Shown here: positions 12,816 through 30,563 of the stretch, piece after piece
Position numbering within the stretch: the first letter of the stretch is position 1
How the letters are laid out: the number at the start of each line of letters is the position of its first letter
IMG/VR virus record: IMGVR_UViG_3300033273_000016
Coordinates: 1-30,772 of that record
Strand: one strand, 5' to 3'
Length of the DNA: 30,772 bases
From: a virus
Program-made: the position numbers and the translations under genes
Notes under the pieces: model-generated
The model's input: the letters and a program-made list of their open reading frames with translations, nothing else
Databases searched by the model: none
Told to the model about the DNA's origin: nothing

Positions 12816-12877
12816 AATTCAATAAGGGGGGTATTTACTCCCCTTTTTTTGTACCTTAGTGAAAACAATTCAATAGG
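12816..12877 (+). repeat. Two copies of the AATTCAATAGG intergenic motif
   Basis: AATTCAATA occurs at 12816-12824, running directly into the G tract of the terminator, and AATTCAATAGG at 12867-12877 just downstream of it. The second copy is followed by GGTAAGGTTATTTTG, which resembles but does not exactly match a Bacteroidota -7 box. The same motif recurs in two other gaps of the genome. Confidence 0.6.
12824..12850 (+). terminator. Intrinsic terminator after the tail-tube-like gene
   Basis: An 8-bp stem including one G-T pair (AAGGGGGG at 12824-12831 with CTCCCCTT at 12838-12845) has a 6-nt loop TATTTA and is followed by a run of T to 12850. Its left flank and stem resemble the terminator at 30561. 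Confidence 0.85.
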
Positions 12878-12894
12878 GTAAGGTTATTTTGTAT

Positions 12895-13236
12895 ATGGAT
12901 ATACTCCCTACATCAGGAACTCAAGAATTAAAGGTAATTCCAAGAAAGGATGCCGTTTCCCCAGTTATAAAACTTACGGATAAGGCAACTAGAACTACAA
13001 CTGCTATTACTCCAAGTAAATCACTTGATGGAGATTATATGGTGTTAAATGGAACATTTAATTTGGTTGAGGATAACTTATATACCTACAGAGTGCAAGT
13101 CTCAGCAGAAAATGATGAAGAGATATACAGAGGTTTAATCTATTGTAGCGACCAAGCATCTTTAGATAAGTATTTTATAAACAAAGACGAATACACAGAG
13201 GAGACCAGCTTTGATAATGAATATATATTTGTATAA
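12895..13236 (+). CDS. Small structural protein of unknown role
   Basis: The 113-114 residue product begins at ATG 12895 (MDILPTSGTQELKV); a TTG at 12889 in the same frame is a less likely start. It is beta-rich, ending with NLYTYRVQVSAENDEEIYRGLIYC and a Tyr/Asn-rich tail (DNEYIFV). I recall similar small proteins among Bacteroidota phage structural genes but no assigned function. It overlaps the portal start by one base (TAATG), suggesting co-translation with the portal. Confidence 0.55.
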   Translation: MDILPTSGTQELKVIPRKDAVSPVIKLTDKATRTTTAITPSKSLDGDYMVLNGTFNLVEDNLYTYRVQVSAENDEEIYRGLIYCSDQASLDKYFINKDEYTEETSFDNEYIFV

Positions 13237-14474
13237 TGTCAAGAAAAAATTATAATAAGCAATTAAACAAGGTTAAGGATGCAATTCACGTTGTAAATCT
13301 TGCCTCTTATACTGCACCTGAAGTTATCGAATCTAAGAGATACGATTGGGTAGAGTACGGAGATGATAATATGTATTTTCAGTATCTTATAGATAGATAC
13401 AATGGGTCTCCAACAAATAACGCTTCTATTAACGGCATATCTGAGATGATATACGGAAGAGGATTAGATGCTACTGATTCTGAAGAAAAGCCTAGAGAGT
13501 ACCAAGAAATGAAGGAACTCTTTAAGAAGGATTGTATGAAGAAGATTTGCTACGATTTCAAAATGATGGGACAAGCTGCCCTACAAATAATCTATAGTAA
13601 AGATAGAAGTAAAATCGCTCAAGTAGCCCATATGCCGATTGAAACATTGAGAGCTGAGAAGGCTGTAGATGGAGATATAAAAGCATATTACTATTCTAGC
13701 GATTGGTCTAAGGTAAAACATAATGATAAGCCTAAGCGTATTGCTGCATTCGGCACTAGCAAGGACAATATTGAGATTCTATATATCAGACCTTATAGAG
13801 CAGGATTCTATTACTATAGCCCAGTTGACTATCAAGGGGGACTTCAGTATGCTGAGTTAGAAGAAGAGATTGCCAACTACCATATTAGCAATATACAGAA
13901 TGGCTTACAACCAAGTATGTTGATTAACTTCAACAATGGTACTCCTGATAAAGAACAGAGAGATTCTATCGAAAGAGCAATCTACGAGAAGTTTAGCGGT
14001 ACATCTAACGCAGGTAAATTTATCTTGGCATTTAACGATAGCAAAGAACTAGCTGCAACTGTTGACCCAGTAATGATTAACGATGCCCATCAACAATATC
14101 AGTTCTTATCTGATGAGAGTATGAAGAAAGTAATGGTATCCCATCGTATTGTGTCTCCAATGTTAGTTGGTATTAAGGATAATACTGGGCTTGGTAATAA
14201 TGCAGAAGAACTTCAGACTGCTTCTTTATTGATGGATAATACTGTTATCAGACCGATGCAGGTTACAATATTAGATGAGCTTGAAAGAATATTAGATTAC
14301 AATAATATTGAATTAGATATTTACTTTAAGACTTTACAGCCTCTAGAGTTTACTGATTTGACTAATGCTCTTACAGATTCTGAAGTAGAAAAAGAAACTG
14401 GAGTAAAGAATGGGGGCTCAGAAGGACAGACTCAACAAGAACAAATTGACGAACAAATTGAAGGATTAGAATAA
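13236..14474 (+). CDS. Portal protein
   Basis: The 412-residue protein fits the portal family of PBSX/HK97-like phages: an N-terminal YGDDNMYFQYLIDRYNGSPT segment, FKMMGQAALQIIYSKD in the clip/wing region, the conserved helical part DAHQQYQFLSDESMKKVMVSHRI read in pieces, SPMLVGIKDNTGLGNNAEEL (a hallmark loop), and a Gln-rich acidic C-terminus. It forms the dodecameric channel at one capsid vertex through which terminase pumps DNA. It overlaps the next gene by one base, which encodes a likely connector. It is odd that it lies after the capsid gene and far from the large terminase. Confidence 0.8.
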   Translation: MSRKNYNKQLNKVKDAIHVVNLASYTAPEVIESKRYDWVEYGDDNMYFQYLIDRYNGSPTNNASINGISEMIYGRGLDATDSEEKPREYQEMKELFKKDCMKKICYDFKMMGQAALQIIYSKDRSKIAQVAHMPIETLRAEKAVDGDIKAYYYSSDWSKVKHNDKPKRIAAFGTSKDNIEILYIRPYRAGFYYYSPVDYQGGLQYAELEEEIANYHISNIQNGLQPSMLINFNNGTPDKEQRDSIERAIYEKFSGTSNAGKFILAFNDSKELAATVDPVMINDAHQQYQFLSDESMKKVMVSHRIVSPMLVGIKDNTGLGNNAEELQTASLLMDNTVIRPMQVTILDELERILDYNNIELDIYFKTLQPLEFTDLTNALTDSEVEKETGVKNGGSEGQTQQEQIDEQIEGLE

Positions 14475-14977
14475 TGGCAACTGCACTATTTATAAAAAGA
14501 GCTGACTTAGTTAAGAATACTGCTTTGAGTGGGAATGTAGATACTGATAAGTTTATTCAGTTTATCAAACTTGCTCAAGAGATTCACGTTCAAAACTATC
14601 TTGGCACAGACCTATATAATAAGATAAGTAGTGATATCATTTCTAGTAGTTTAACTGGGGATTATTTAAACTTAGTTAATGACTATATACAGCCGATGTT
14701 GATTCATTTTGCGATGGCAGAATATTTACCTTTTGCTGCTTATACAATAGCAAATGGAGGAGTATACAAACATTCCTCTGAGAATTCAATACAACCTTTA
14801 AAAGAAGAGATAGATAGCCTTATTGCTAAGGAGAGAGATTATGCTGAATATTATGCCAATAGATTTATTGAGTATATGAGCTTTAATGCGAGTAGCAAAT
14901 TTCCTGAATACTTTAGTAATAATAATGAGGACATCTACCCAGATAAAGACGCATTATTTCAAGGATGGGTACTATAA
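14474..14977 (+). CDS. Head-tail connector-like protein
   Basis: This 167-residue, mostly helical protein has the pattern of the small connector or head completion proteins found next to Bacteroidota phage portals: FIKLAQEIHVQNYLGTDLYNKI, then YIQPMLIHFAMAEYLPF, then a GGVYKHSSENSIQP turn and a long helix of charged residues. I recall such proteins as a DUF6712-type family, but this is from memory. It probably docks below the portal ring and seals or attaches the tail. The start overlaps the portal stop (TAATG). Confidence 0.6.
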   Translation: MATALFIKRADLVKNTALSGNVDTDKFIQFIKLAQEIHVQNYLGTDLYNKISSDIISSSLTGDYLNLVNDYIQPMLIHFAMAEYLPFAAYTIANGGVYKHSSENSIQPLKEEIDSLIAKERDYAEYYANRFIEYMSFNASSKFPEYFSNNNEDIYPDKDALFQGWVL

Positions 14978-15084
14978 GAGAAAAAAAACAATACAAACCT
15001 AAGAAAGAGAACATTATTAAATTAAGTAATTACTTAAAAAAGAGAGATGGCAAATTCAATAGATTGGGGAAAGATATACTGTGA
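14965..15084 (+). CDS. Small basic ORF in the connector/fibre junction
   Basis: A 39-residue Lys-rich ORF (MGTIREKKQYKPKKENIIKL at its start) overlaps the connector end by 13 bp and the next gene by 38 bp. It fills an otherwise empty 69-bp gap. Composition is protein-like but the overlap with a well-supported start makes it uncertain. No function can be given. Confidence 0.35.
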   Translation: MGTIREKKQYKPKKENIIKLSNYLKKRDGKFNRLGKDIL

Positions 15085-15271
15085 TATGGAAGCTAACGAT
15101 GCCTTTGGTGTCGATGAGCAATACACAACATATTTTATTCCTGACTTTTCTGCTCCAACTTGTTGGGGGGTAGTTCCAGTAACACCATTTACAGCAGATA
15201 TGATTAGCTATTTCGGAGGAGATTTAAGAGCAGATACAACACAATTTACGGCAGATAAAACACAATTATAA
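15047..15271 (+). CDS. Small virion-type protein with ADTT repeat tail
   Basis: The 74-residue protein starts MANSIDWGKIYCDMEANDAFG, a pattern I recall in short proteins beside tail-fibre genes of Bacteroidota phages. It ends in RADTTQFTADKTQL (residues 61-74), the same short repeat type seen inside the tail protein at 2450. No catalytic motif is present. It may be a structural or assembly partner of the fibre proteins that follow. Confidence 0.55.
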   Translation: MANSIDWGKIYCDMEANDAFGVDEQYTTYFIPDFSAPTCWGVVPVTPFTADMISYFGGDLRADTTQFTADKTQL

Positions 15272-15281
15272 ATAAAATAAA

Positions 15282-16151
15282 ATGGCAAAACAAACGATTA
15301 ATATTGGGACTACTGCAAACGATGGTACTGGAGACCCTATAAGAAGTGCGTTTGATAAATCTAATGACAACTTTGATGAGATTTACGCAGACGATTTTGT
15401 TACCTCAGCGCGTATAGCAGACGAAGCTATAACAGAGGCTCACTTAGACGCTACTAATACTCCTACGGATAACTATATTTTAAGTTACGATAGTGCTTCT
15501 AGTGGATTTACTTGGGTGCAGCAATTCGATGGAGATATTACCTCAGTAGTCGCAGGAGATGGGCTAACAGGAGGTGCTACAGATGGAGACGCTACCTTAA
15601 ACGTAAACGTAGACGATTCTACAATAGAAATAGATACGGATACAGTAAGAGTAAAGGCTTTAGGCATAGATACTGCGCAACTAGCAGCAGACGCAGTTAC
15701 AGGAGCAAAAATTGCAGACGATTCTATTGATTCAGAACATTACGTTGATGGTAGTATTGACACCGCACACCTTGCAAATGATTCAGTCACTCACGATAAA
15801 CTTGAAGCGCGATTTACTGCAAAACAAGATATTTCAACAACAAGTGGAACAATCAACTTGGATGCTTCTTCTTATGGAATTTTTGAATTAACGTCTGACC
15901 TTACTGGTGCAACGACATTAAATATTCAAAATATCAAGAAAGGACAAGTAATTGATATTTTGGTAAGTGGTTCGCAAACCATCACAATAGCGGATGACTT
16001 CACAACTTCAGCAATTAATCAAGCGGGAAGTGGAACTTACGATGGTGCTTCAGATAACCATATTCAAGTTGTATGTATTGATGACAACGATTCAGATGCA
16101 ATTTTAATTTATTCAGTTGCAACTTATACAAGCGACACAAACCCAGCATAA
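15282..16151 (+). CDS. Tail fibre protein
   Basis: The 289-residue protein opens with INIGTTANDGTGDPIRSAFDKSNDNFDEIY, read in parts, a fibre N-terminus widespread in marine phages. Residues 45-55 and 130-174 have short repeats of the type LAADAVTGAKIADDSIDSEHY, typical of fibrous trimeric shafts, and the last 110 residues form a beta-rich head (LTGATTLNIQNIKKGQVIDI). It probably attaches the receptor-binding part. Codon choice here and in the next two genes includes more GCG and CGC than elsewhere, a possible sign of exchange. Confidence 0.65.
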   Translation: MAKQTINIGTTANDGTGDPIRSAFDKSNDNFDEIYADDFVTSARIADEAITEAHLDATNTPTDNYILSYDSASSGFTWVQQFDGDITSVVAGDGLTGGATDGDATLNVNVDDSTIEIDTDTVRVKALGIDTAQLAADAVTGAKIADDSIDSEHYVDGSIDTAHLANDSVTHDKLEARFTAKQDISTTSGTINLDASSYGIFELTSDLTGATTLNIQNIKKGQVIDILVSGSQTITIADDFTTSAINQAGSGTYDGASDNHIQVVCIDDNDSDAILIYSVATYTSDTNPA

Positions 16152-16163
16152 AAATAATATAAA

Positions 16164-16625
16164 ATGAAAGGAATTAATATAAACGGTACAATCAAAACTT
16201 ATTCATCAGTTCCAAAAACTTGGGGCAGTATTCTTGGAGTGAATTATATGTCGGATGAAGATTTAAAGACACTTGGATTTTATGATGTCGTAAGACCTTC
16301 AACAAGCAATTCGCAAGAACTTGGCGACATTTATTTTGATGCTGACAATGAAGTTTTCACATACCCCGTTGAATCAAAAACATTAACACAAACGGTTGCT
16401 GAACTTAAAGAACAAAAAATTGCAAATTTGAAAGCATTATACAATAATGAACTTGCAAAAACTGATTGGATTATTATTCGTGACCAAGAAATTGGAAATA
16501 CAACTGACCAAACAATTCTTGACGACCGCGCACAATTAAGAACAGACTGCGCGACACACGAAACCGCAATCAATGCTAAAACAACAAAGGCAAGCGTTGT
16601 TGATTACGAACTTCCAAACTTATAA
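16164..16625 (+). CDS. Tail-fibre-associated protein, assembly-chaperone-like
   Basis: This 153-residue protein lies between two fibre genes. Its second half has a helical layout with TDWIIIRDQE (T100-E109) and a repeated-helix region ending in a short tail, similar to small phage tail assembly chaperone families (Phage_tail_APC/DUF4376 type). The N-terminal half has a Trp/Gly-containing strand region (KTWGSILGVNYMSDEDL). A role in folding or attaching the neighbouring fibre is likely but not proven. Confidence 0.5.
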   Translation: MKGININGTIKTYSSVPKTWGSILGVNYMSDEDLKTLGFYDVVRPSTSNSQELGDIYFDADNEVFTYPVESKTLTQTVAELKEQKIANLKALYNNELAKTDWIIIRDQEIGNTTDQTILDDRAQLRTDCATHETAINAKTTKASVVDYELPNL

Positions 16626-16627
16626 GA

Positions 16628-17662
16628 ATGGGTTTAAATAAAAGACTTATTGACCAAGCGGGTGGTGCTGCGGGTGTTACAAATACTGACAATTTTGACA
16701 TTGTTACTTATACAGGAAACGGAAGTACGCAATCAATTTCTTCGCTTGATTTCCAACCTGATTTTATATGGATTAAAAACCGCTCAACAAGTTCTAATCA
16801 TATTTTACAAAATACTGTTTCAGGCATAAATCATCCTCAATATTCTGATGCGACTTATTTAAGTTATGCCGATTCAGTATTTGGTCACGTTAATTCAGTT
16901 CAAAGCAATGGATTCGAAGTAGATGAGGGCAATTCAGGAGAAGCTAATGCAAACAAATCAAACAGTAACTACGTTGCTTGGTGTTGGAAGGGCGGAGGAA
17001 CTGCGGTAAGCAATACAGATGGTTCTATTACTTCTTCTGTAAGTGCTAATCAAGATGCAGGGTTTAGTATTGTGAAATATACAGGTGGTGGTACTTCAAA
17101 TTACACAGTAGGACACGGACTTTCTTCAGCTCCTGAACTAATTATAGTAAAAAACAGAGACCAAACCGATGGATGGCTTGCTTGGACAACTGTTATTGAT
17201 GGTACAAGTGATTATTTATTTTTAAATTCCACAGGAGCAAAAGGTAATTCGGGTCAATCATTGCCAACAAGTACTGTTGTTGAGGTTCAATCAGATGGCG
17301 GTGGAGAATCAAATACTTTAAATGAAGACTACATAATGTACTGCTTCCACTCCGTAGATGGGTATCAGAAGATAGGGAGTTATACGGGGAATGCTTCAAG
17401 TATAAATACAATAAGTGTTGGATTTGCACCAAGATTTGTAATGTTTAAAAGAACCGATTCATCTGGGGGTTGGAGGATGTTTGATTCAACACGCGGAACA
17501 GACAAATCAATACAAGCACAAGATAGTGGAGCGGAATATGACGATACACAGAATTATGTTGATTTCACTTCTGATGGTTTTGAATTTAATAGAACAGTTA
17601 CTCAAACCAATGCCGATTTAAACTCAACAAGCGGAACTTACATCTACTTAGCAATAGCATAA
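16628..17662 (+). CDS. Receptor-binding tail protein with three repeated beta domains
   Basis: The 344-residue protein has three related units of roughly 100 residues. Each begins with a strand like IVTYTGNGST / IVKYTGGGTS / IGSYTGNASS, then LDFQPDFIWIKNR / LSSAPELIIVKNR / VGFAPRFVMFKR, and ends with a Trp/Tyr strand (YVAWCWK, YIMYCFH, YIYLAIA). This unit is common in receptor-binding proteins of marine phages. It should lie at the distal fibre and set host range. The gene ends in TAATG with the lysis region following, and its base use is more GC-containing than that of neighbours. Confidence 0.65.
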   Translation: MGLNKRLIDQAGGAAGVTNTDNFDIVTYTGNGSTQSISSLDFQPDFIWIKNRSTSSNHILQNTVSGINHPQYSDATYLSYADSVFGHVNSVQSNGFEVDEGNSGEANANKSNSNYVAWCWKGGGTAVSNTDGSITSSVSANQDAGFSIVKYTGGGTSNYTVGHGLSSAPELIIVKNRDQTDGWLAWTTVIDGTSDYLFLNSTGAKGNSGQSLPTSTVVEVQSDGGGESNTLNEDYIMYCFHSVDGYQKIGSYTGNASSINTISVGFAPRFVMFKRTDSSGGWRMFDSTRGTDKSIQAQDSGAEYDDTQNYVDFTSDGFEFNRTVTQTNADLNSTSGTYIYLAIA

Positions 17663-17802
17663 TGGAACAACTAAAGATATATTTATTGAACGCAGTAGCA
17701 TTAGCAATTAGTATAACAGAAGTTAATCCGTACTTACAAACTATGTCTTTAGTATTAGCAATAGTATATACGGCAATTCAAATAACAAAGAAACTAAAAT
17801 GA
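17662..17802 (+). CDS. Small membrane protein, holin-like candidate
   Basis: A 46-residue ORF overlaps the preceding stop by one base and the next start by 4. It has two hydrophobic segments (residues 5-19 and 24-42) split by a short TEVNP turn, and a basic KKLK end. Size and topology resemble small holins or anti-holins, and it is the first gene of the lysis region. The stronger holin candidate is at 18883, so this could be a helper. Function is inferred. Confidence 0.5.
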   Translation: MEQLKIYLLNAVALAISITEVNPYLQTMSLVLAIVYTAIQITKKLK

Positions 17803-18083
17803 GTAAGATAGACATTGACGGAGATGGCAAAGCTGATTTTTCAATCAGTATCACACAAATTATAACTATAGCTGCAATGTTTGCTTCTATTATAGGGTCT
17901 TATTATACGTTATCTAATAGAATAACTATTGCAGAAGAAGAAGTAAGTAAACTTAAATACAACCAAAAAGAATATACTTGGAAGAATCAAAGGGCTTTAG
18001 AAGATGAAGTAAAGTCAATGAGGTTAGAGATGAGAGACTTTATGAAAGATTTAGAGTGGATACAAAAAGAAAAGAAAAGATGA
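17799..18083 (+). CDS. Membrane-anchored coiled-coil protein in lysis region
   Basis: This 94-residue protein has an N-terminal acidic DIDGDGKADF motif (a DxDxDG calcium-loop-like pattern), one membrane segment at about residues 18-39 (ITIAAMFASIIGSYYTL) and a long charged coiled-coil to the end. It starts with ATGA overlap. The layout of a single membrane span followed by coiled-coil resembles inner-membrane spanins, and the lipoprotein at 18719 could be its outer-membrane partner. Alternatively it is a holin-associated protein of the XhlA type. Confidence 0.5.
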   Translation: MSKIDIDGDGKADFSISITQIITIAAMFASIIGSYYTLSNRITIAEEEVSKLKYNQKEYTWKNQRALEDEVKSMRLEMRDFMKDLEWIQKEKKR

Positions 18084-18238
18084 TAAAAAAATATTGGACA
18101 TTAGCTAAACAGTATGTTAAAGATTATATTACTATTAATTGGAATAGTGATAGCATATTTAACAAAGGCAAAGTAATCTTTATAGGACTTGTTGCTTTCT
18201 TCCTTATTTGGAAACTATTGTATGCTATATTCGTATGA
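18080..18238 (+). CDS. Small single-span membrane protein
   Basis: The 52-residue product starts at ATG 18080 (ATGA overlap); a GTG at 18056 in frame is less likely. It has a charged N-terminal half and a C-terminal membrane span (VIFIGLVAFFLIWKLLYAIF). It sits directly before the endolysin with another ATGA overlap. A holin or regulator role is plausible, but no family is recognised. Confidence 0.5.
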   Translation: MIKKYWTLAKQYVKDYITINWNSDSIFNKGKVIFIGLVAFFLIWKLLYAIFV

Positions 18239-18591
18239 ACCTTAATTACTTTACTCTCTCGGAATTTGACAGTCCTGATTTACCTAATTCAGGCGTTAAT
18301 ATGGATGAACAGTTTCTTGCCAAATTGGAACAAGCAAGAGAAATCGCTTCTATTCCATTTAGAATCACGTCAGGTTATAGAAGTAAAGAACACAATGCCG
18401 AAGTCGGTGGAGTACCAAACTCATCCCACCTTATTGGAGTCGCAGCAGATATTGCTGTTGGAGGAGGAGCAGATAGGTTTATCATTCTCTCCGCACTTAT
18501 TAAAGCAGGGTTTAAAAGAATCGGAGTTGCAAAAACCTTTATCCATTGCGATACCGATGACTCCAAGCCAAACTCAGTTTGGACATACTAA
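18235..18591 (+). CDS. Peptidase M15-type endolysin
   Basis: The 118-residue protein carries the M15 (VanY/M15_3-like) signature: SGYRSKEHN (46-54), VGGVPNSSHLIGVAADI with zinc ligands H65 and D72, and FIHCD with H104 and D106. Enzymes of this family cut peptide bonds in peptidoglycan, so this should be the phage lysin. It has no signal peptide, so release through a holin is expected, in line with the neighbouring membrane proteins. ATG at 18235 is chosen because of the ATGA overlap and because the conserved domain starts at NYFTLSEF. Confidence 0.85.
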   Translation: MNLNYFTLSEFDSPDLPNSGVNMDEQFLAKLEQAREIASIPFRITSGYRSKEHNAEVGGVPNSSHLIGVAADIAVGGGADRFIILSALIKAGFKRIGVAKTFIHCDTDDSKPNSVWTY

Positions 18592-18609
18592 TACTGTAGG
18601 AAGTACAAT

Positions 18610-18792
18610 ATGGCTGAAATAAAAATAAAATCTAATGGGTTAAGAAATGAATTAAAAGCCATTAAACAATCCATAGACAAACTAACGGAGGCAATCCTCC
18701 AACAAACAAACAAACGCTATGAGAATAATAACAATATTACTTGCTGCAACGATGTTGAGTTGTGCAAGTGCAAGAAAGCAAAAGATAGCTGA
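18610..18792 (+). CDS. Small coiled-coil protein overlapping a lipoprotein gene
   Basis: A 60-residue ORF starts 18 bp after the lysin. Its first half is a coiled-coil-like basic helix (LRNELKAIKQSIDKLTEAIL), while the second half (CCNDVELCKCKKAKDS) has a strange composition because the DNA there also encodes the lipoprotein in another frame. It lacks a membrane span. It may be a partner of the lipoprotein, in the manner of overlapping Rz/Rz1 pairs, although the inner-membrane anchor expected of Rz is absent. Confidence 0.45.
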   Translation: MAEIKIKSNGLRNELKAIKQSIDKLTEAILQQTNKRYENNNNITCCNDVELCKCKKAKDS

Positions 18793-18883
18793 ATACAAAG
18801 AATTAACAAAAGACATCTGCAGAGACAATAAACACGAAGTTAGATTAGCACAAATACTGTATAATAAAATGCTGAACAAATAA
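18719..18883 (+). CDS. Spanin-like lipoprotein (Rz1-like), embedded gene
   Basis: A 54-residue ORF in another frame starts inside the gene at 18610. It begins with a lipoprotein signal (MRIITILLAATMLSC, with the lipidated Cys at 15), followed by a short charged chain (KIAEYKELTKDICRDN). Its stop overlaps the holin start by one base. Such short lipoproteins in lysis cassettes are outer-membrane spanins that help fuse membranes at lysis. The lipobox (MLSC) is looser than the classic LAGC form but acceptable for Bacteroidota. Confidence 0.6.
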   Translation: MRIITILLAATMLSCASARKQKIAEYKELTKDICRDNKHEVRLAQILYNKMLNK

Positions 18884-19263
18884 TGTGGAAATTATTATTA
18901 GGTCTTTTAAAAGGAGGCAACGGCAGAAAATCAGTAGCAGGTAATTTAGCTTGGGAAATTAGGGAAGCTATAAAAGGCAAAGAACTTGACCCTAATCAGC
19001 TATTAGAAATACAAACTAGAATTAACGAAATTGAAGCACAACACCGAACAGTATTTGTAGCAGGGTGGAGACCTTTTATAGGGTGGGTTTGTGGAGTAGC
19101 ATTAGCATATAACTTTGTAATTAGGGATTTGTTTATTTGGGCAATAAAACCTGAAACAGTTCCTCCTGCGTTACAAATGGAACATTTAATGACTGTTCTT
19201 TTGGGTATGTTGGGACTTGGTGGACTTAGAACTTATGAGAAATTAAAAGATAAAGTTAAGTAA
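18883..19263 (+). CDS. Holin, 3-TM (GTA-type) family
   Basis: The 126-residue protein matches the 3-TM holin family: an amphipathic N-terminus, EAQHRTVFVAGWRPFIGWVC with a membrane span at about 57-80, then a second at 101-115 (HLMTVLLGMLGLG) and the conserved GGLRTYEK end. It forms lesions in the inner membrane that let the endolysin escape. It starts at TAATG on the lipoprotein stop, in a cassette with the M15 lysin. The residues named are those I recall as conserved. Confidence 0.8.
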   Translation: MWKLLLGLLKGGNGRKSVAGNLAWEIREAIKGKELDPNQLLEIQTRINEIEAQHRTVFVAGWRPFIGWVCGVALAYNFVIRDLFIWAIKPETVPPALQMEHLMTVLLGMLGLGGLRTYEKLKDKVK

Positions 19264-19266
19264 GTA

Positions 19267-19401
19267 ATGGCAAAACTCCCTATATTTGCATATAAGAAAA
19301 AGACCAAGAATAAGCGTAAAGGAGTCCACGCAAAAAGTAAGTCTAGTAAGATTAAGACCTCACGAAACTATAAGAAGCCCTATAGAGGTCAGGGCAAATA
19401 A
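19267..19401 (+). CDS. Very basic small protein
   Basis: A 44-residue ORF three bases after the holin stop encodes a Lys/Arg-rich peptide (KKKTKNKRKGVHAKSKSSK) ending NYKKPYRGQGK. Small proteins with this ending are common in Bacteroidota phages in my recollection. The charge suggests nucleic-acid binding or capsid-related contact, but no function is known. The internal TATATTTG at 19281 is probably chance within coding sequence. Confidence 0.55.
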   Translation: MAKLPIFAYKKKTKNKRKGVHAKSKSSKIKTSRNYKKPYRGQGK

Positions 19402-19421
19402 TAACCTTTAATATATAAATA

Positions 19422-19664
19422 ATGACAGAAGATTTGACTATTCGTAAATTAGCTGAAAAGATTGCTACTGATTTTGCCTTGAGTATAAAAGAGCGTACTG
19501 ATATGATATTAGAACTTGATGCAATTCAATATACCAATCTGGGAATTGATTCTACTAAAACCGAGAAAAAAAAAGTTAAGTCGGATAGCAAACATCTGTA
19601 TCGCCAAATAAAAGGTTTTAATGAACACGATGGAAATCTATTACTAAACCACTTGGATAAATAA
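19422..19664 (+). CDS. Small helical protein, unknown
   Basis: The 80-residue product (MTEDLTIRKLAEKIATDFAL at its start) is mostly helical and has a basic middle. I recognise no family. It is the last gene before a regulatory gap and a terminator-promoter region, so it ends the long late operon. Confidence 0.55.
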   Translation: MTEDLTIRKLAEKIATDFALSIKERTDMILELDAIQYTNLGIDSTKTEKKKVKSDSKHLYRQIKGFNEHDGNLLLNHLDK

Positions 19665-19714
19665 ATGTGAATTTAATAGGGTATTATTTGGAAATGTGAA
19701 TTCAATAGATGTAT
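19663..19714 (+). repeat. Direct repeat AAATGTGAATTyAATAGRgTAT, two copies
   Basis: Near-identical 22-23 bp units lie at 19663-19684 and 19692-19714, 29 bp apart start to start, both containing the AATTCAATAGG-type core (AATTTAATAGG at 19670, AATTCAATAG at 19699). The second core lies between the -33 and -7 boxes of a promoter, a position where a regulator would affect initiation. Confidence 0.65.
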
Positions 19715-19719: not shown

Positions 19720-19723
19720 TAGT

Positions 19724-19807: not shown

Positions 19808-19817
19808 TACTAAAAGA

Positions 19818-19848: not shown

Positions 19849-19852
19849 ACTT

Positions 19853-23934: not shown

Positions 23935-24286
23935 ATCTACTGGGCTTGGTGATTCAGTAGAGAAAGTTTTCCAAGCTACTGGAATAGATAAGGTAGCCAA
24001 GTTTGTTCTAGGGGAGGACTGTGGCTGTAGTGATAGACGTGAGGTTCTCAATAAGATGTTTCCCTATCAGAAACCTAATTGTTTAACTGAGGATGAGTAC
24101 AACTATTTAACTGGGTACTTTTCTAAAAGAGTAAGTAAAATTTCAGGTAAACAACAAGAAACTTTAGTTGCTATATATAATAGAGTCTTTAATGATAAGG
24201 CACAAACAACTGGGTGTAACAGTTGCTTTTTAAACAACATCCATAAGAAACTAGAGAGAGTATATAGAGAATACGACAATGAGTAG
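23867..24286 (+). CDS. Conserved phage protein with clustered cysteines
   Basis: The 139-residue protein overlaps the sigma-like gene by 68 bp. A disordered basic N-terminus (1-25) leads to GLGDSVEKVFQATGIDKVAKF, a DCGC pair (C52, C54) with C72, and CNSC (C117, C120). I recall this family from Bacteroidota phages next to replication genes. The two cysteine groups may bind zinc. No catalytic function is known to me. Confidence 0.55.
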   Translation: MVKTKSKRVQSKSTKDTSNQKTKSTGLGDSVEKVFQATGIDKVAKFVLGEDCGCSDRREVLNKMFPYQKPNCLTEDEYNYLTGYFSKRVSKISGKQQETLVAIYNRVFNDKAQTTGCNSCFLNNIHKKLERVYREYDNE

Positions 24287-24674
24287 TTTAATACGCAATA
24301 GTAAACAAGTTAGTCAATCTATAGATTTCACAGGAGTTGAAAATAATAACATCCATCCTACTGATATAGATTTCGTATTGGAGTTTGACAATGAGGTATT
24401 GATTCTAGGGGAGGTTAAAAAGAAAGGAAATAAATTGCCAATAGGTCAAAGGCTAGTATTGGAACGGATGGTAGATAGATGGGGGAGTAAAGGAATTGCA
24501 TTAAAAGTAATCCACTCCCATAGAGATGATAATACTGATATACCTTTGTTAGATTGCTTTGTTGAGGCTTACTATCTTGAAGGCAAATGGACAATGCTGA
24601 AAGCTCCCCATAGCCTAGTTGCTTTTATAAATGGGTTAGGTAAAAAATGGAATAACAATAAATGTAGATTTTAA
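24279..24674 (+). CDS. PD-(D/E)xK nuclease-like protein
   Basis: The 131-residue protein has a nuclease-type core: HPTDIDFVLEF with D29/D31, then LILGEVKKKG with E45 and K47, the D...ExK arrangement of the restriction-like fold. The C-terminal half has a helix (GQRLVLERMVDRWG) that fits the family. Substrate is unknown; a structure-specific or recombination nuclease is likely given its neighbours. It overlaps the preceding gene by 8 bp and the next by one base. Confidence 0.5.
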   Translation: MSSLIRNSKQVSQSIDFTGVENNNIHPTDIDFVLEFDNEVLILGEVKKKGNKLPIGQRLVLERMVDRWGSKGIALKVIHSHRDDNTDIPLLDCFVEAYYLEGKWTMLKAPHSLVAFINGLGKKWNNNKCRF

Positions 24675-24946
24675 TGGGAAAGAAACATAGTTTAAGAAAG
24701 TGGATTGAGATGCAGTTCGGTGATGGATGGACAATGGATTCAACATACTCCCATAATGAATTGCCAAAAGACCCAATAGTAGAACAGGTAATTCAAAAGA
24801 TGAGAAGTAGAAGTGGAGATGGGATTATAAAGTATGGGACTACACTATATGATAGCCCTGATGGATTCTATAAGTTCTTAAACCATCTACAGGAAGAACT
24901 TTTAGATGGTGCATTATATATAGAGAAACTGAAGCAACAGAAATGA
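24674..24946 (+). CDS. MazG-like or related small helical protein
   Basis: The 90-residue protein has a MSRSGDGIIKYGTTL-like segment (residue 43 onward) followed by HLQEELLDGALYIEKL, a pattern like the acidic helices of all-alpha nucleotide pyrophosphohydrolases (MazG-like), where Glu and Asp bind metal. Other acidic residues of a full MazG site are not evident, so a role in nucleotide clean-up is only a possibility. It lies in the replication operon. Confidence 0.45.
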   Translation: MGKKHSLRKWIEMQFGDGWTMDSTYSHNELPKDPIVEQVIQKMRSRSGDGIIKYGTTLYDSPDGFYKFLNHLQEELLDGALYIEKLKQQK

Positions 24947-25095
24947 AAGAAATAAAACTGATTAAAATGCAGAACGACCTAAAGCTAACACAACAGGCTT
25001 TAGTAGTCGCTTTAAATAGAATAGAGAAAATAGAACAACAATTAAAACCAAAAGAAAATGCCACTATTAAAACCAAAGAAGTACGAGACAAATAA
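24943..25095 (+). CDS. Small coiled-coil ORF
   Basis: The 50-residue product is a Lys-rich helix (KLTQQALVVALNRIEKIEQQ). It overlaps the preceding stop by ATGA and the next ORF by 38 bp. No function is known. Confidence 0.5.
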   Translation: MKEIKLIKMQNDLKLTQQALVVALNRIEKIEQQLKPKENATIKTKEVRDK

Positions 25096-25213
25096 AGATT
25101 TTATCCGTAGATGTATGGGGAATGCTAAGATGGGAGAGGAATACTCCGATAGAGAACAGCGTTATGCAGTTTGCCAAACAATATGGAAGGATAACTTTAC
25201 TCCTAAAAAATAA
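25058..25213 (+). CDS. Small protein with RCM...AVC motif
   Basis: A 51-residue ORF with FIRRCMGNAKMGEEYSDREQ and RYAVCQTIW. This short two-cysteine pattern is common as a small phage protein or as the tail end of larger head proteins, and the two cysteines (C19, C39) may hold a metal. It precedes a promoter gap and ends the replication cluster. Confidence 0.5.
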   Translation: MPLLKPKKYETNKDFIRRCMGNAKMGEEYSDREQRYAVCQTIWKDNFTPKK

Positions 25214-25222
25214 TTAGAGTTA

Positions 25223-25255
25223 TTGTAGTTTATTAACATTTTATTTATATATTTG
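25223..25255 (+). promoter_or_regulatory. Bacteroidota-type promoter
   Basis: TTG at 25223-25225 and TATATTTG at 25248-25255 are 22 nt apart. The -7 region AACATTTTATTTATATATTTG resembles the one at 19818. A start near 25260 would leave a 13-nt leader before the gene at 25273. Confidence 0.6.
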
Positions 25256-25272
25256 TTTTAAACAATAGATAT

Positions 25273-25473
25273 ATGAAGGTAATTAAGCTACTTTTTAAGT
25301 TCCCTCAACTTACTCTTGTATTTGTCCTACTTGGATTACTTTTCATATTTGAAGGTATTGTTATGGTACTAACAAGTCCATTCTATTTTATATTACAAGG
25401 AATTGAATGGGCAATTAAACAATTATTAACACTAATAAATTACAATTATGGGGAAAACAAAAGAAATGTTTGA
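25273..25473 (+). CDS. Small membrane protein
   Basis: The 66-residue protein has one long or two short hydrophobic spans (residues 11-32 and 36-50: LTLVFVLLGLLFIFEGIVMV, then FYFILQGIEW). It is the first gene after a promoter, so it may be an early protein acting on the host membrane. That is inferred from position only. Confidence 0.5.
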   Translation: MKVIKLLFKFPQLTLVFVLLGLLFIFEGIVMVLTSPFYFILQGIEWAIKQLLTLINYNYGENKRNV

Positions 25474-25609
25474 GAAATTAAACCACGAACAATCAGCAGT
25501 TGATTTTTACAACAGACTGAGATTGTTGAAACAATGGGAGGAGGAGCTGGTAGACCCTAAAGTCCCAGAGAGTGTAAAGCGTATAATCATTAAAAGTATT
25601 TTAGCATAA
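25448..25609 (+). CDS. Small helical protein, unknown
   Basis: A 53-residue ORF overlaps the membrane protein end by 26 bp and the exonuclease start by one base. It is helical and charged (FYNRLRLLKQWEEELVDPKV). Nothing recognisable. Confidence 0.5.
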   Translation: MGKTKEMFEKLNHEQSAVDFYNRLRLLKQWEEELVDPKVPESVKRIIIKSILA

Positions 25610-26397
25610 TGGAAAATACAATAACAACACTCGATGGTGTATTTTGGGATAAGCAAGAAATACTATCCCAGATGATGGATGATAAATTCTACTATAATTA
25701 TCTTAGGCAAAATGCTTTATCTAGTTCAGCTTGTAATAAGTTATTAGAATCACCACTTGTCTATAAAAATAGTTTAGGTGGGAGTTCTGGTAGTAACAAT
25801 CAGAGTCTAAGGGATGGTTGGTTATTCCATTGTAAAGTATTAGAACCTGAGAAATATAATAAACTACACTTTGTAGATGTCCAGAGTAAAAATACTAATG
25901 CTTATAAACTAGCGGTTGAGGAATATGGTCAAGTGTTTACTAGTAAAGAGAAATACGAAGCTGAACAAATGGCAAGTGTTTTCCTTAACAATTCAAATAC
26001 AGCTCACTATCTTACAGGGACTCGTACTGAAGTACCTGCTGTAGGGGAGATTGATGGGTTGCCGTTTAGAGCTAAGGCTGATATATTAGGAGGTAAGTTT
26101 ATTGTAGATTTAAAGAGTACTAGTAAAGGCGGACTCCAGAAATTTAAGTGGAGTGCTGATAATTTCGGATACGATGTGCAATGTTATATTTATTGCGAAT
26201 TGTTTAATATAAGTTATAAGGATTTTACTTTTGCCGTAATCGAAAAGGAGACCCATTTGATGGGGCTGTTTGAATGTAGTAAGGAATTCTACGAGAGAGG
26301 TCGTTATAAGACTGAGGAAGCTATCCAGATATATAGAGACTTCTTTTTAGAGAAGAAAAAACCAGTAGAAGAATTTTATTTATACGATGTACTCTAG
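25609..26397 (+). CDS. RecB/Cas4-like exonuclease (DUF3799-like)
   Basis: The 262-residue protein has the full RecB-family nuclease set: GWLFH with H74, PFRAKADIL with D158, FIVDLKST with D167 and K169, and QCYIY (QxxxY, Q191). Families of this type (DUF3799-like) act as 5' to 3' exonucleases that produce single-stranded ends for an annealing protein. The ERF gene is in the same genome, so these should form a recombination pair, although they lie 5 kb apart. It starts at TAATG on the previous stop. Confidence 0.8.
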   Translation: MENTITTLDGVFWDKQEILSQMMDDKFYYNYLRQNALSSSACNKLLESPLVYKNSLGGSSGSNNQSLRDGWLFHCKVLEPEKYNKLHFVDVQSKNTNAYKLAVEEYGQVFTSKEKYEAEQMASVFLNNSNTAHYLTGTRTEVPAVGEIDGLPFRAKADILGGKFIVDLKSTSKGGLQKFKWSADNFGYDVQCYIYCELFNISYKDFTFAVIEKETHLMGLFECSKEFYERGRYKTEEAIQIYRDFFLEKKKPVEEFYLYDVL

Positions 26398-26563
26398 TAA
26401 AGAAGAATGTTATACTGATGTTTATACTTCTTTATGTTTAGGCATATTAGATGAAAAGGAAGTTAGGCATTTACTAGAATACTACAAAGATATAGAACAC
26501 TATGAATGTTGTCAGGGTATAGTTGAAGCATACGCTGACTTTAAGAAAAACCCAGTAAAATGA
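26387..26563 (+). CDS. Small acidic protein with CC motif
   Basis: The 58-residue ORF overlaps the exonuclease end by 11 bp and the DnaA-like gene by 4. It is acidic (DEKEVRHLLEYYKDIEHYEC) with four cysteines (C8, C17, C41, C42). Unknown. Confidence 0.5.
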   Translation: MYSSKEECYTDVYTSLCLGILDEKEVRHLLEYYKDIEHYECCQGIVEAYADFKKNPVK

Positions 26564-27099
26564 TAGAACAAATAAAAAAGAGAGAAAGATACAAGGAATT
26601 AGCCAATTCAATAGTATGTGGATATTATGGGATTGATATTGGTCAACCAACCAGAATAAGAAAATATGTAATTGCAAGGGCTATGTATTATAAAATACTA
26701 AGAGCCAATACCAATATGAGTTTTCAGGAGATTGCCAAAATATTCAATAAACACCACGCTACTGTACTCCATTCTATAAAACAGTTAGATGGTATAATGG
26801 AACAGGACTATTCGTTAAGAAGTGATTTCTTAGTTATAAATACTAAGTTTACTGATGCTATAGAAAAAATATACTCAGATAATTTAGATGAATTGCTTAC
26901 TGTAGAGGAAGAATCTGAGGAGTATTATATGTTGCTTAGTGATTTTAATGATTTGAATCAAAGACACAGAGCATTAAGAATAGCCCATAAAGAACTTATT
27001 GAGTCAAATGAGAAACTCAATGAGAAGTATAAGAAACTAAAGAATAAACACGAAGAGAGAGAATATTATTACCAGAGAAACGGATATGTATTAAAATAA
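26560..27099 (+). CDS. DnaA domain IV-like DNA-binding protein with coiled coil
   Basis: Residues 33-80 read like the DnaA C-terminal DNA-binding domain: RKYVIARAMYYKILRANTNM, then SFQEIAKIFNKHHATVLHSI, which matches the DnaA signature around the H-x-TV recognition helix. The rest is a hinge followed by a coiled coil (about 130-165). A full DnaA ATPase is absent. It could bind DnaA-box-like sites and act in phage replication or host take-over. I infer this role. It starts with ATGA overlap. Confidence 0.65.
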   Translation: MIEQIKKRERYKELANSIVCGYYGIDIGQPTRIRKYVIARAMYYKILRANTNMSFQEIAKIFNKHHATVLHSIKQLDGIMEQDYSLRSDFLVINTKFTDAIEKIYSDNLDELLTVEEESEEYYMLLSDFNDLNQRHRALRIAHKELIESNEKLNEKYKKLKNKHEEREYYYQRNGYVLK

Positions 27100-27102
27100 A
27101 TT

Positions 27103-27474
27103 ATGGAAGAAAAAGATAAACCAAAGAAAGTAGATGGGAGAAGGAACAATGGGGCGGTAAAAGGAGTCTATCGAGGGCAGGGTAGACCCCCTAAGATTAA
27201 GGAGAAAGAGACTAATGCTCTGACTCTCAAGGCATTAACTAAAGCGTTTGGTAGTGAGGAAAAGGCTTGGATTCACGTTGCCAAAAAAGCCGCTGAAGGA
27301 AACTTCAACTACACTAAGATGTTATGGGAATACCGATATGGGAAGCCAAAAGAACAGCAAGATATAAATGTAAATACTAACGTGAATATCCCAGTTGTGG
27401 ATTTCGCTAAACCTAAAACAATAGATGTCGACCACGAAGAAATCAAAAAAGGAACTAAGGATTCACGACAGTAG
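27103..27474 (+). CDS. Candidate terminase small subunit
   Basis: The 123-residue protein has a basic N-terminus (GRRNNGAVKGVYRGQGRPPK), a helical core (ALTLKALTKAFGSEEKAWIHVAKKAAEG read in parts) and WEYRYGKPKEQQD, a pattern of small terminase-like or DNA-packaging proteins upstream of the large subunit. It lies about 800 bp before the large terminase in the same direction. The HTH is not sharply visible, so I keep this tentative. Confidence 0.5.
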   Translation: MEEKDKPKKVDGRRNNGAVKGVYRGQGRPPKIKEKETNALTLKALTKAFGSEEKAWIHVAKKAAEGNFNYTKMLWEYRYGKPKEQQDINVNTNVNIPVVDFAKPKTIDVDHEEIKKGTKDSRQ

Positions 27475-27571
27475 TAAATTCCCAGATGATTTCTGGAATT
27501 ATTACGTCAATCCAATACTAGGGTATTATTATAACCACGATGTAAAAAAAGATAGAATTGAAGGATACTAA
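27425..27571 (+). CDS. Small ORF overlapping terminase-like and nuclease genes
   Basis: A 48-residue ORF starts inside the preceding gene in another frame, overlaps it by 50 bp and the next by 14. Its C-terminal part KFPDDFWNYYVNPILGYYYN is protein-like and explains the otherwise empty gap at 27475-27557. Function unknown. Confidence 0.5.
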   Translation: MSTTKKSKKELRIHDSSKFPDDFWNYYVNPILGYYYNHDVKKDRIEGY

Positions 27572-27950
27572 CTATATAGGATGTTATGGGGAAACCTTAT
27601 TCTTTGCCGAATGTATAAAGAGAGGTTTTTCAGTTAGCAAACCATTGCTAGATTCAAGTCCCTATGATTGCATAGTCGACACCCATAACAATTTATATAG
27701 AGTACAAATTAAATCAACTGGGAAAGCCCCTGAGGAAGGAGACCCTAATATCAAGACCCACCTTCAAAACAATAAATCTATTTACTTAGCCTCAGTTGTA
27801 GATTACTTTGCAGTATATTCTACTTATTACAACGGATTCTTTATATTTAGGAATGAGGGGAATATGCAATCTATTCGGTTTAGTCTTAGTGGCAAATGGA
27901 AAGATTGTTTTAATAATTATAAATTCGATAGAGATGAGCAGAAAGGGTAA
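27558..27950 (+). CDS. PD-(D/E)xK endonuclease-like protein with TTG start
   Basis: The 130-residue protein has NYIGCYGETLFFAECIKRGF (E12), SSPYDCIV with D37 and LYRVQIKST with Q50 and K52, the D...QxK core of PDDEXK endonucleases. It resembles short endonucleases of the PDDEXK_5 type. Start choice: a stop lies in frame at 27543-27545 and no ATG precedes the conserved fold, so TTG 27558 is the only common start codon available. It may cut DNA at packaging or be a homing-type nuclease. Both are inferences. Confidence 0.6.
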   Translation: MKDTNYIGCYGETLFFAECIKRGFSVSKPLLDSSPYDCIVDTHNNLYRVQIKSTGKAPEEGDPNIKTHLQNNKSIYLASVVDYFAVYSTYYNGFFIFRNEGNMQSIRFSLSGKWKDCFNNYKFDRDEQKG

Positions 27951-28050
27951 GCTATCAAGAATAAGAAGGAGACGTAAATGGAGAGGCAATTCAAAGGAAG
28001 AGCTAAAAAGAAATGAGATAATAGAAGATATATATAACAGTAAAAGATGA
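27934..28050 (+). CDS. Small Arg-rich protein
   Basis: A 38-residue ORF (MSRKGKLSRIRRRRKWRGN at its start) begins at ATG 27934, overlapping the nuclease end by 17 bp. A longer reading from 27808 is improbable because it lies wholly over the nuclease. The basic part may bind nucleic acid. Unknown. Confidence 0.5.
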   Translation: MSRKGKLSRIRRRRKWRGNSKEELKRNEIIEDIYNSKR

Positions 28051-28229
28051 ATCCTAAGAACAAAATGATAAATAAGTTTTATCCTGATAATCAGGTTATA
28101 TCCGAATGGGATATTGATAAACAGTTGTTTTATATTAAAATATGGGATGCTCGTGCCAATAAAAATATATATCGTATTGAGCCTGATTATTTAACTGAGA
28201 ATGATTTATGGCATTGTGATAATAAGTGA
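28047..28229 (+). CDS. Small protein, unknown
   Basis: The 60-residue product has an aromatic beta-like body (SEWDIDKQLFYIKIWDARAN). It begins with ATGA overlap and ends 30 bp before the likely start of the terminase. Nothing more can be said. Confidence 0.5.
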   Translation: MNPKNKMINKFYPDNQVISEWDIDKQLFYIKIWDARANKNIYRIEPDYLTENDLWHCDNK

Positions 28230-28258
28230 GAAAATATTCAGAAAAATCTGAAATCAAT

Positions 28259-29476
28259 ATGGCAAATAAAATAGATTTAAATCCTAAGTATCAAACGCTA
28301 TTCAATAGCGATAGTAGATACTTTGTAATAACAGGAGGTCGAGGTTCTGGTAAATCATTTGCCGTAAACACATTCTTAGTCCTTCTAACGTACGAACAGA
28401 ATACAAAGACACTATTTACTCGTTATACAATGAGTAGTGCCTCTATGAGTATTATTCCTGAGTTTATGGAAAAGATAGAGCTGATGGGGGTAGCTGAATT
28501 CTTTACTATCACTAAGACTGAGATTACCAATAAGCTAACTAATAGTTCTATATACTTTAGTGGGATTAAAACAGCGAGTGGAGACCAGACCGCAAAGCTG
28601 AAATCAATTCAAGGGGTAAATACTTTTGTATTGGATGAGGCTGAAGAGTTGAACGATGAAACTGGCTTTGATAAGATTGACTATTCTATTAGGAGTAAGG
28701 TTGCCAAGAATAGATGTATATTGATTCTAAACCCTACTACAAAAGAACATTGGATATACCAAAAGTTTTTCCAGAATAGAGGTATCCCAGATGGGTTTAA
28801 CGGCACTAAAGAAGGAGTAACTTATATCCACACAACATATTTAGACAATATTGACCACCTATCTAAATCATTCGTTAACGAGATTGAAAAGATTAAAGAA
28901 CGTAGACCAGAAAAGTACGCCCATCAAATTATGGGGGGGTGGCTACAGAAAGCAGAAGGAGTAGTCTTTACTGATTGGCAAATAGGACAATTCAATAGTG
29001 AGATAGATTCAATATTCGCACTTGATTTCGGATTTGCCCGAGATAACACAGCTTTAGTAGAGATTGCCATAGACAAAGAAAGAAAAATTATTTGGCTCAA
29101 GGAACACCTATATAAGAAAGGATTAGTAACTTCCCAGATATACGAGCATTGCCGTAGAGTAGCAGGTAGGAAGCTAATTGTTTGTGATAATTCTGAACCT
29201 AGATTATTGTCTGAGATGAAGATGAAGAACCCACCTCTGAATGTTACCCCTACAATAAAGAAGAAAGGAAGTATATTGAGTGGGATTGCTTTGATGCAGG
29301 ATTACAATATAAATTTAGATGGGGAGAATTTAGTCAAAGAGTTCAATAACTACGTTTGGGATATTAGGGGGGTAAAGCCAATAGATAACTACAACCACCT
29401 TATAGATGCAAGTAGGTATGGGATTCAATATATACTAACTAGGTCAGTTCCTAAAGGAATGTATATTGTAAAGTAA
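28259..29476 (+). CDS. terL: Terminase large subunit
   Basis: The 405-residue protein has Walker A GGRGSGKS (26-33), Walker B TFVLDEAEE (D126, E127) and the nuclease residues in FALDFGF (D256) and VCDNSEP (D310), so it powers and cuts DNA during packaging (PBSX/Terminase_3-like group). I chose ATG 28259 because family proteins start just before KIDLNPKYQ; a GTG at 28226 in frame overlaps the previous stop as GTGA and could also be used. It is followed by a terminator. It is remote from the portal gene, which is unusual. Confidence 0.9.
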   Translation: MANKIDLNPKYQTLFNSDSRYFVITGGRGSGKSFAVNTFLVLLTYEQNTKTLFTRYTMSSASMSIIPEFMEKIELMGVAEFFTITKTEITNKLTNSSIYFSGIKTASGDQTAKLKSIQGVNTFVLDEAEELNDETGFDKIDYSIRSKVAKNRCILILNPTTKEHWIYQKFFQNRGIPDGFNGTKEGVTYIHTTYLDNIDHLSKSFVNEIEKIKERRPEKYAHQIMGGWLQKAEGVVFTDWQIGQFNSEIDSIFALDFGFARDNTALVEIAIDKERKIIWLKEHLYKKGLVTSQIYEHCRRVAGRKLIVCDNSEPRLLSEMKMKNPPLNVTPTIKKKGSILSGIALMQDYNINLDGENLVKEFNNYVWDIRGVKPIDNYNHLIDASRYGIQYILTRSVPKGMYIVK

Positions 29477-29541
29477 AATATTTTTTGTATATTAGTCGTA
29501 GAATTTTTTGTTTGATGTTTTTTAAGTTAATGTAGGGAAAG

Positions 29542-29573
29542 GAGGGATTTAGAAATATTTCCCTCTTTTTTTT
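29542..29573 (+). terminator. Intrinsic terminator after terminase
   Basis: GAGGGA at 29542-29547 pairs with TCCCTC at 29560-29565, a 6-bp stem with a 12-nt loop, then a run of T. It closes the operon of the terminase. Another stem in the same stretch (GGGAAA with TTTCCC) may compete. Confidence 0.75.
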
Positions 29574-29581
29574 ATAATTTA

Positions 29582-29611
29582 TTTGGCAGTTGGAATATTT
29601 TTTATATATTG
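29582..29611 (+). promoter_or_regulatory. Promoter resembling the ERF promoter
   Basis: TTTG at 29582-29585 and TATATTG at 29605-29611 (one T short of consensus) are separated by 19 nt. The 30-bp stretch 29581-29610 matches the promoter at 19817-19846 at 26 positions. A start near 29616 would give a 23-nt leader. Confidence 0.65.
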
Positions 29612-29638
29612 CGGTATAATTTTAAAACAAAGATAATT

Positions 29639-29881
29639 ATGGCAGAGACAAAAGAACCAGAGTTGCGAATCGAGGATGAACAACTTTATTCAGTAGGGTA
29701 TGAATTCTATAAGTTTTATTCAGCATTCAAGGATAAGCTATATGAGAATTACGCTAAAGAACAGGAGGAAGATGAAGTTTTAGACTTTGATAGTCAGTTC
29801 CCAGTATTTTGCTTTAGGGCATTTACTACTTCCTTTTTAGAATATCAAAAAAAAATAAGTAATTATGGCAATAGAAAATAA
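29639..29881 (+). CDS. Small acidic protein, unknown
   Basis: The 80-residue protein starts at ATG 29639; the frame is open to a TTG at 29609 but that lies in the promoter. It is acidic and helical (LYENYAKEQEEDEVLDFDS), without a known family. First gene of a short operon of small unknown genes, so possibly early and host-directed. Confidence 0.6.
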   Translation: MAETKEPELRIEDEQLYSVGYEFYKFYSAFKDKLYENYAKEQEEDEVLDFDSQFPVFCFRAFTTSFLEYQKKISNYGNRK

Positions 29882-30029
29882 AACAGTATCTATACCCTTA
29901 ACAAGCGATGAGATAGACGTATTGTTAAAGTTAGTATGGGATTTCAAAACAGAATTAATAAGAAGAGAGAGCTGGAGTTTTGTAGATGAGATGGAAGAGC
30001 TTTATAATAAATTAGATGTAGATGAATAA
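29865..30029 (+). CDS. Small acidic protein, unknown
   Basis: A 54-residue ORF overlaps the preceding gene by 17 bp. It begins MAIENKTVSIPLTSDEIDV and continues as a charged helix with WSFVDEMEELYNK. Unknown. Confidence 0.5.
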   Translation: MAIENKTVSIPLTSDEIDVLLKLVWDFKTELIRRESWSFVDEMEELYNKLDVDE

Positions 30030-30186
30030 GTATAAGTTCAAACTGAATTCAAAGGAACTCCACCTACTCGAGACTTGCCTAGCACAAACCATTGGCAAGA
30101 GAAAGACCTATAACCTTCCCACAAAGGAGTATAGGGATTTATTAGTCAAGATTGACAAACAAGTATTAAAACAACTAGAAAAATGA
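30022..30186 (+). CDS. Small basic helical protein, unknown
   Basis: A 54-residue ORF overlaps the previous gene by 8 bp and ends in ATGA with the next. It is helical and basic (TKEYRDLLVKIDKQVLKQLE). Unknown. Confidence 0.5.
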   Translation: MNKYKFKLNSKELHLLETCLAQTIGKRKTYNLPTKEYRDLLVKIDKQVLKQLEK

Positions 30187-30410
30187 GAATAAAAATACAG
30201 GACAATAACGGAAACCATTTATGTGAATTTAACGTAGGTGGTTTTCTGGGGGACAGAAAAATGGGAGGAACACAATTTAGACTATCAGGATTTAGAGACT
30301 GTTCATTATCTGAAATAGAAAAAGACCATATAGGAACTTTTGTATTTATACAAACAGAACAAGATTTTACTAATCAATTAAAACAAATAGAAAATGGAAC
30401 AAGTAGTTAG
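30183..30410 (+). CDS. Small beta-rich protein, unknown
   Basis: The 75-residue product has a beta-like body (IKIQDNNGNHLCEFNVGGFLG, read in parts) with a charged C-terminus. It overlaps the next gene by 17 bp. Unknown. Confidence 0.5.
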   Translation: MRIKIQDNNGNHLCEFNVGGFLGDRKMGGTQFRLSGFRDCSLSEIEKDHIGTFVFIQTEQDFTNQLKQIENGTSS

Positions 30411-30504
30411 TCATTGTTGCGGTGCACCTTTATTGCCGATTGAAACTGAAATTTGCTCAGAATGTTACGAGCATTGTGAAGCAATTCAATACACTATCGA
30501 ATAA
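30394..30504 (+). CDS. Zinc-ribbon-like microprotein
   Basis: A 36-residue ORF with HCCGAPLLPIETEICSECYEHC, read in parts: C8/C9, C21, C24 and C28 plus two histidines could bind zinc. I recall such short proteins in Bacteroidota phages. It ends at the first intergenic motif copies. Confidence 0.5.
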   Translation: MEQVVSHCCGAPLLPIETEICSECYEHCEAIQYTIE

Positions 30505-30563
30505 ATTCAATAGGCATAAATTCAATACCTAAATATGAATTCAATAGGTATAAATTCAATAGG
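30483..30563 (+). repeat. Five copies of AATTCAATA(GG) with a duplicated 24-bp unit
   Basis: Motif starts are 30483, 30504, 30519, 30538 and 30553 (spacing 21, 15, 19, 15). The 24-bp units 30504-30527 and 30538-30561 differ at one base (C/T) and lie 34 bp apart. The first copy lies in the end of the microprotein gene, the rest are non-coding. The last runs directly into a terminator. Confidence 0.7.

Follow-up and report, generated by a model that had tools for sequence, protein, structure and literature searches.

A directional, clade-specific repeat element at transcription borders in a group of uncultivated marine phages

The window analysed here, i.e. the whole of a 30,772-base IMG/VR virus record, is a siphophage-like contig with nearly all its genes on the + strand. 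We find that AATTCAATAGG, a word dispersed in its intergenic gaps, is a member of an oriented element of the form TRTV-AATYYAATA-(GG+ or CC+), and there is good support for reading it as a control element that is directional, confined to one clade and placed at transcription borders. The carriers are uncultivated marine phages, whose hosts are probably Flavobacteria.

Sequence, orientation and placement of the copies

The consensus derived from deduplicated contexts reads T-R-T-V-A-A-T-Y-Y-A-A-T-A, followed by a G-run or a C-run; the element is thus short and asymmetric, with 13 nt plus the S tail, and in the same contexts a T is almost never seen at its position -1. The core with GG or CC after it was counted in 22 long related contigs (662 kb) that have a core genome in common with the window: 191 copies lie on the coding strand, as against 3 on the opposite strand. 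In the window itself the exact form AATTCAATAGG is present four times on the + strand, each time in a gap, and never on the - strand. Similarly, all six copies of AATYYAATA with GG or CC are on the + strand and intergenic, with none on the - strand, in a sequence that is 7.2% intergenic (binomial p = 1.4e-7), while dinucleotide-shuffled intergenic DNA yields on average 0.03 such copies, and at most one. Hence, the intergenic enrichment implied by the original prediction survives control for composition. Its caveat that the core is also found in genes is correct for the bare 8-mer ATTCAATA (13 of 20 plus-strand copies are genic), and leaves the enrichment of the longer form unaffected.

Every copy named in that prediction is present, the one at 30483 being doubtful, and the gaps that it had described as free of copies (25214-25272 and 29477-29608) contain none. 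All the features that follow are on the + strand. In the first gap, AATTCAATAAG (12816-12826) enters the 5' arm (12824-12845) of an intrinsic terminator of the form GGGGGG..CCCC with a T-run (12824-12851); this is followed by a host-type -7 box, TACCTTAG (12852-12859), and by a copy of AATTCAATAGG (12867-12877) in the presumed 5' leader of an operon whose start is a little upstream of the portal gene. This gap is kept in relatives, with the next copy about 40-42 nt on. In the erf region, AATTTAATAGG (19670-19680) begins 6 nt after a stop codon, and AATTCAATAGA (19699-19709) sits within the -33/-7 spacer, between the -33 box TTTG (19687-19690) and TATATTTG (19712-19719), the -7 box of promoter P1, confirming the proposed location between promoter boxes. 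The third group comprises the doubtful copy AATTCAATACA (30483-30493) at the end of a short ORF (30396-30506), and an array of four: AATTCAATAGG overlapping a stop codon (30504-30514), AATTCAATACC (30519-30529), and two further copies of AATTCAATAGG (30538-30548 and 30553-30563). The last of these enters the 5' arm (30561-30584) of the intrinsic terminator 3' of the array (30561-30592), such that the predicted continuity with terminator stems is seen at both 12816 and 30553.

The label host-type refers to the Bacteroidetes promoter pattern, with TTTG at -33 and TAnnTTTG at -7. Across the relatives, copies are single or paired around such promoters, whereas arrays of 3-7 copies are found in 3' gaps, notably the one after terL. 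The -7 boxes near copies are predominantly in the sense direction (187 vs 43 antisense), and 51 of 104 distinct arrays (49%) have a T6 run within 55 nt downstream, as against 11.3% of random intergenic sites. Other copies lie straight after stop codons, before terminators or between a promoter and a start codon. The element is independent of promoter geometry: its distance and order relative to the -7 box vary among orthologous gaps in which the host-type boxes are intact. For instance, in the erf gap both copies in the window are upstream of the -7 box, in the relative G004 the box is between the copies, and in L328, L346 and L350 there is no copy, though some such relatives keep the same promoters and terminator.

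In one subclade an opposite-strand gene lies beyond terL (2655-3080, minus strand, of the reoriented contig G023:C1, with orthologues in G013, G021, G024, G031 and G038), and the arrays inside it are still oriented rightward. The antisense copies in the N-terminal part of this gene encode GIKFT/GIEFT-like peptides; in other relatives its orthologue is on the + strand.

The distances between neighbouring copies show a further regularity. Up to about 50 bp, 123 copy-to-copy distances are odd and 9 even, counts that are not independent as the contigs are related, with many loci contributing. The 22 contigs account for 95 odd and 4 even distances up to 50 bp, above which the parity bias is gone, and 11 further contigs for 28 odd and 5 even, each of the latter being 16. 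Counted as distinct spacers, 176 have an even and 24 an odd length, and orthologous spacers differ in length by 2 in 99 pairs and by 1 in 25 pairs. The rule spans many loci, including the gap holding both a terminator and a promoter: in relatives, the spacers corresponding to 12816-12867 have lengths of 40 or 42 nt, apart from one of 39 and one of 41, which differ by a single G in the G-run. As controls, the intervals between a stop codon and a copy, or between a copy and a start codon, are mixed or show less regularity. Neither helical phasing nor codons nor hairpin symmetry accounts for the rule, and palindromic pairing of neighbours together with pairing within the spacer shows no excess. 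That the reader senses a two-nucleotide register between sites is a long shot; such a register, if real and functional, would make for a kind of recognition that has no precedent among operator families.

Distribution across phages and bacterial genomes

A TerL search recovered 80 related marine contigs, and most of those with a gap after terL carry copies there, without exception on the coding strand; when viral contigs were scanned for the pattern of two copies side by side, at least 119 stretches matched. The nearest isolates are the Nonlabens phages P12024S and P12024L (TerL 52%), which suggests flavobacterial hosts. The element family is absent from P12024S, and in the sister clade of P12024S-like phages 80 loci around TerL (831 kb) have 7 versus 5 occurrences by strand, i.e. 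background, an absence confirmed in 17 longer sister records. Blastn against isolated phages retrieved no array.

Scanning 84,980 bacterial and archaeal species genomes (257 Gb) with the pattern AATTYAATAGG-N(2-12)-AATTYAATACC gave 5 matches, which is the chance level; two of the five are in a single Flavobacteriales MAG that might include phage contigs. With so few matches, a host origin of the element was rejected. Given the background level in the sister clade and the nearly empty genome scan, the element is phage- and clade-specific. The original proposal of a phage-specific control element thus agrees with the strict orientation, the placement in gaps at promoters and terminators, the conservation throughout the clade and the chance-level matches in cellular genomes.

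Modes of action

The reading that we tentatively prefer, at somewhat less than even confidence, is that the element is an oriented recognition site of a clade-encoded regulator at transcription-unit borders with an operator/stoperator-like action: a protein would bind it at the DNA level, with an effect on transcription. One or two copies over the -33/-7 region or the transcript start would function as operators, and the 3' gap arrays of 3-7 copies, often beside an intrinsic terminator, would restrict read-through in the rightward direction, with an operating principle like that of the operators and stoperators of mycobacteriophage L5. Action on rightward transcription, as expected of such sites, would explain why rightward arrays are kept across the opposite-strand gene. 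The stoperators of L5 and Cluster A phages are asymmetric 13-mers; a genome has more than 20 of them, located in promoters and in short gaps between genes, with one orientation relative to transcription that matters for repression (PMC9283540, PMC6550527). The element reported here is comparably short, asymmetric, intergenic, repeated and in one orientation (191 vs 3); however, it differs in sequence and hosts, and in its terminator-near arrays of 3-7 copies, free G/C tail and odd distances. Neither the freedom between C-run and G-run nor the odd distances are predicted by a stoperator mechanism. An L5-type monomeric repressor (HTH plus stoperator domain) was not recognised in 30 ORFs of the window with PHROGs, or in 10 with Pfam, where remote homologues are possible; likewise, an integrase, a repressor, parABS or lysogeny genes were not recognised in the 30 scanned ORFs of this incomplete contig.

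A second parallel is offered by T1-like phages such as Stevie and TLS, which are lytic siphophages carrying 16-21 copies of an asymmetric repeat of 21-22 nt, oriented and mainly intergenic; their authors compare these to stoperators and name the function an open question (PMC4319613, PMC11447400). The present element similarly is oriented and mainly intergenic in siphophage-like genomes, while the T1-like repeats differ in being single copies upstream of start codons in phages of Enterobacteria, and the elements of their consensus ATAGCAC-N-TTG-N-TAAAA are absent from TRTV-AATYYAATA-SS. Oriented intergenic repeats of lytic phages such as T1 and TLS have been a puzzle for years, and the element is a second, unrelated case, much denser and spread over a large marine phage group with hundreds of natural variants. 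The motif-free sister clade as a control, together with the few clade-restricted proteins, makes the function of such repeats testable.

The strict orientation would be just as natural in an element that acts as RNA. The main rival explanation, which we consider possible though somewhat less probable, is that a protein of the phage binds RNA and reads AAUYYAAUA in the 5' leaders and at the 3' ends of phage transcripts, with an effect on stability, translation or termination. It would fit the strictly sense direction and the copies that directly follow stop codons, precede terminators or separate promoter from start codon; moreover, R at -3 could pair with U7 (UGU or UAU with AUA), and the predicted fold of the candidate reader described below is weakly dsRBD-like. 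Against it, structural covariation is absent, with the pair-restoring G in only 6 of 10 C7 variants, and compensatory UGU/ACA changes are too few. In arrays the tail runs are as often equal (126) as complementary (137; Fisher p = 0.71), and G-run and C-run tails are interchangeable; no extra folding is seen in 104 arrays relative to spacer-resampled arrays (mean z -0.03), and Rfam has no match at the gathering threshold in window 12700-30772. As these tests of run complementarity, folding and known families all came out empty, a structured RNA is unsupported, and the equivalence of G and C tails, without complementarity or extra folding, is better suited to recognition of a duplex. Furthermore, copies upstream of -7 boxes fall outside the transcript of that promoter. 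Two specific structures were considered and rejected: loops of GGG-[motif]-CCC hairpins can be drawn in many arrays with no excess, equal and complementary runs being alike frequent, and a CsrB-like array of loop-presenting hairpins is at odds with the absent arm complementarity and extra folding.

Alternatively, the orientation could follow the genome strand rather than transcription, as for a replication, packaging or recombination site (iterons, chi-like words or module-boundary homology); since the genes are nearly all one-way, strand and transcription are not fully separable. Like the arrays, lambda-type iterons are direct repeats about 15-21 bp apart in groups of four, but they occur at one origin. 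The arrays too are direct repeats, several copies per genome lie at module borders, and the orientation is retained even across the opposite-strand gene. Nevertheless, unlike iterons, the copies occupy operon borders at many loci, their distances varying; they track promoters and terminators, the distances are out of helical phase, and occupancy of a border is optional, as the empty erf gap in three relatives illustrates. We consider a site of this kind unlikely.

The original prediction had also linked the element to the sigma-like factor of the phage, encoded at 23386-23934 on the + strand. We weighed this protein as the reader, and rejected it. Copies do gather near -7 boxes in phages that encode such a protein; however, its relatives are found in 44 of the 80 motif-free sister loci and in P12024S. 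Moreover, arrays are placed before terminators, and promoter elements would not tolerate the shifting order and spacing relative to intact host-type -7 boxes that orthologous gaps display. A promoter element read by this factor is accordingly very improbable. A chance or host-derived AT-rich word, suggested by the frequency of the core 8-mer inside genes, is refuted by the shuffles, the strand bias, the sister-clade control and the bacterial genome scan.

Candidate readers and neighbouring words

A comparison of the core genes with the sister clade singled out a protein of about 80 aa encoded downstream of the terL array, the promoter or start codon of which is usually flanked by copies on both sides. 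A profile of this protein matches in all of the 31 motif-rich contigs that extend to the locus and in 0 of 18 sister records, and has no match in unrelated contigs that fit the pattern by chance. The window stops before this gene and has a sole, weak profile match, inside the exonuclease gene; the fragments G017 and G022, in which TerL is accompanied by no more than about 18-25 kb of other sequence, may also stop before the locus. The co-occurrence of protein and motif spans a single clade, and therefore perhaps reflects a single event. AlphaFold predicts an alpha-beta-beta-beta-alpha arrangement (pLDDT 85), for which the Foldseek matches in the PDB are mostly double-stranded-RNA-binding domains with weak scores (E 0.03 or worse, TM at most 0.5; best rows E 0.03, TM 0.46); such a fold, if real, would favour RNA as the target. 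The best rows from VIA are unrelated folds with scores as for common arrangements, and an AP2/integrase-arm fold, guessed from the sequence, was absent from the fold search. Distant relatives in the Flavobacterium phages FL-1 and FCL-2 are inside operons, with no such repeats. The protein may be the reader of the element, as a weak candidate, and two clade-restricted small proteins, encoded at window 26387-26563 and 20396-20698, are no less likely candidates. In one subclade (L063:14830-15414 and L070:14635-15252) the protein of about 80 aa is fused behind a domain that by eye resembles GIY-YIG.

A second clade-restricted, promoter-linked word, TGKCAGNTGGAA, is present in the window at 19820-19831, 29584-29595 and 30687-30698. 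It lies about 20 bp upstream of -7 boxes, with 16 occurrences on the + and 12 on the - strand in the 662 kb of relatives and 0 in the 831 kb of the sister clade; in several relatives it adjoins AATTCAATA copies at the promoter of the protein of about 80 aa. In the leader before erf (19712-19848), the -7 box is followed by a conserved TTGTTTATCTTTGTTT, then by a terminator hairpin whose sequence varies, and finally by another promoter immediately ahead of the start codon, an order common to many relatives; this leader may give rise to a short terminated RNA or serve in antitermination. The same order recurs in the gap after terL (29470-29610), in the form of TATATTAG, a hairpin with a T-run, TGGCAGTTGGAA and TATATATTG, with no AATTCAATA copy. 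P12024S has a word of its own, TTTCCGTTAATA, placed directly before start codons with the ATG a few bases on, in at least three copies (L198 near 5396, 23945 and 25185).
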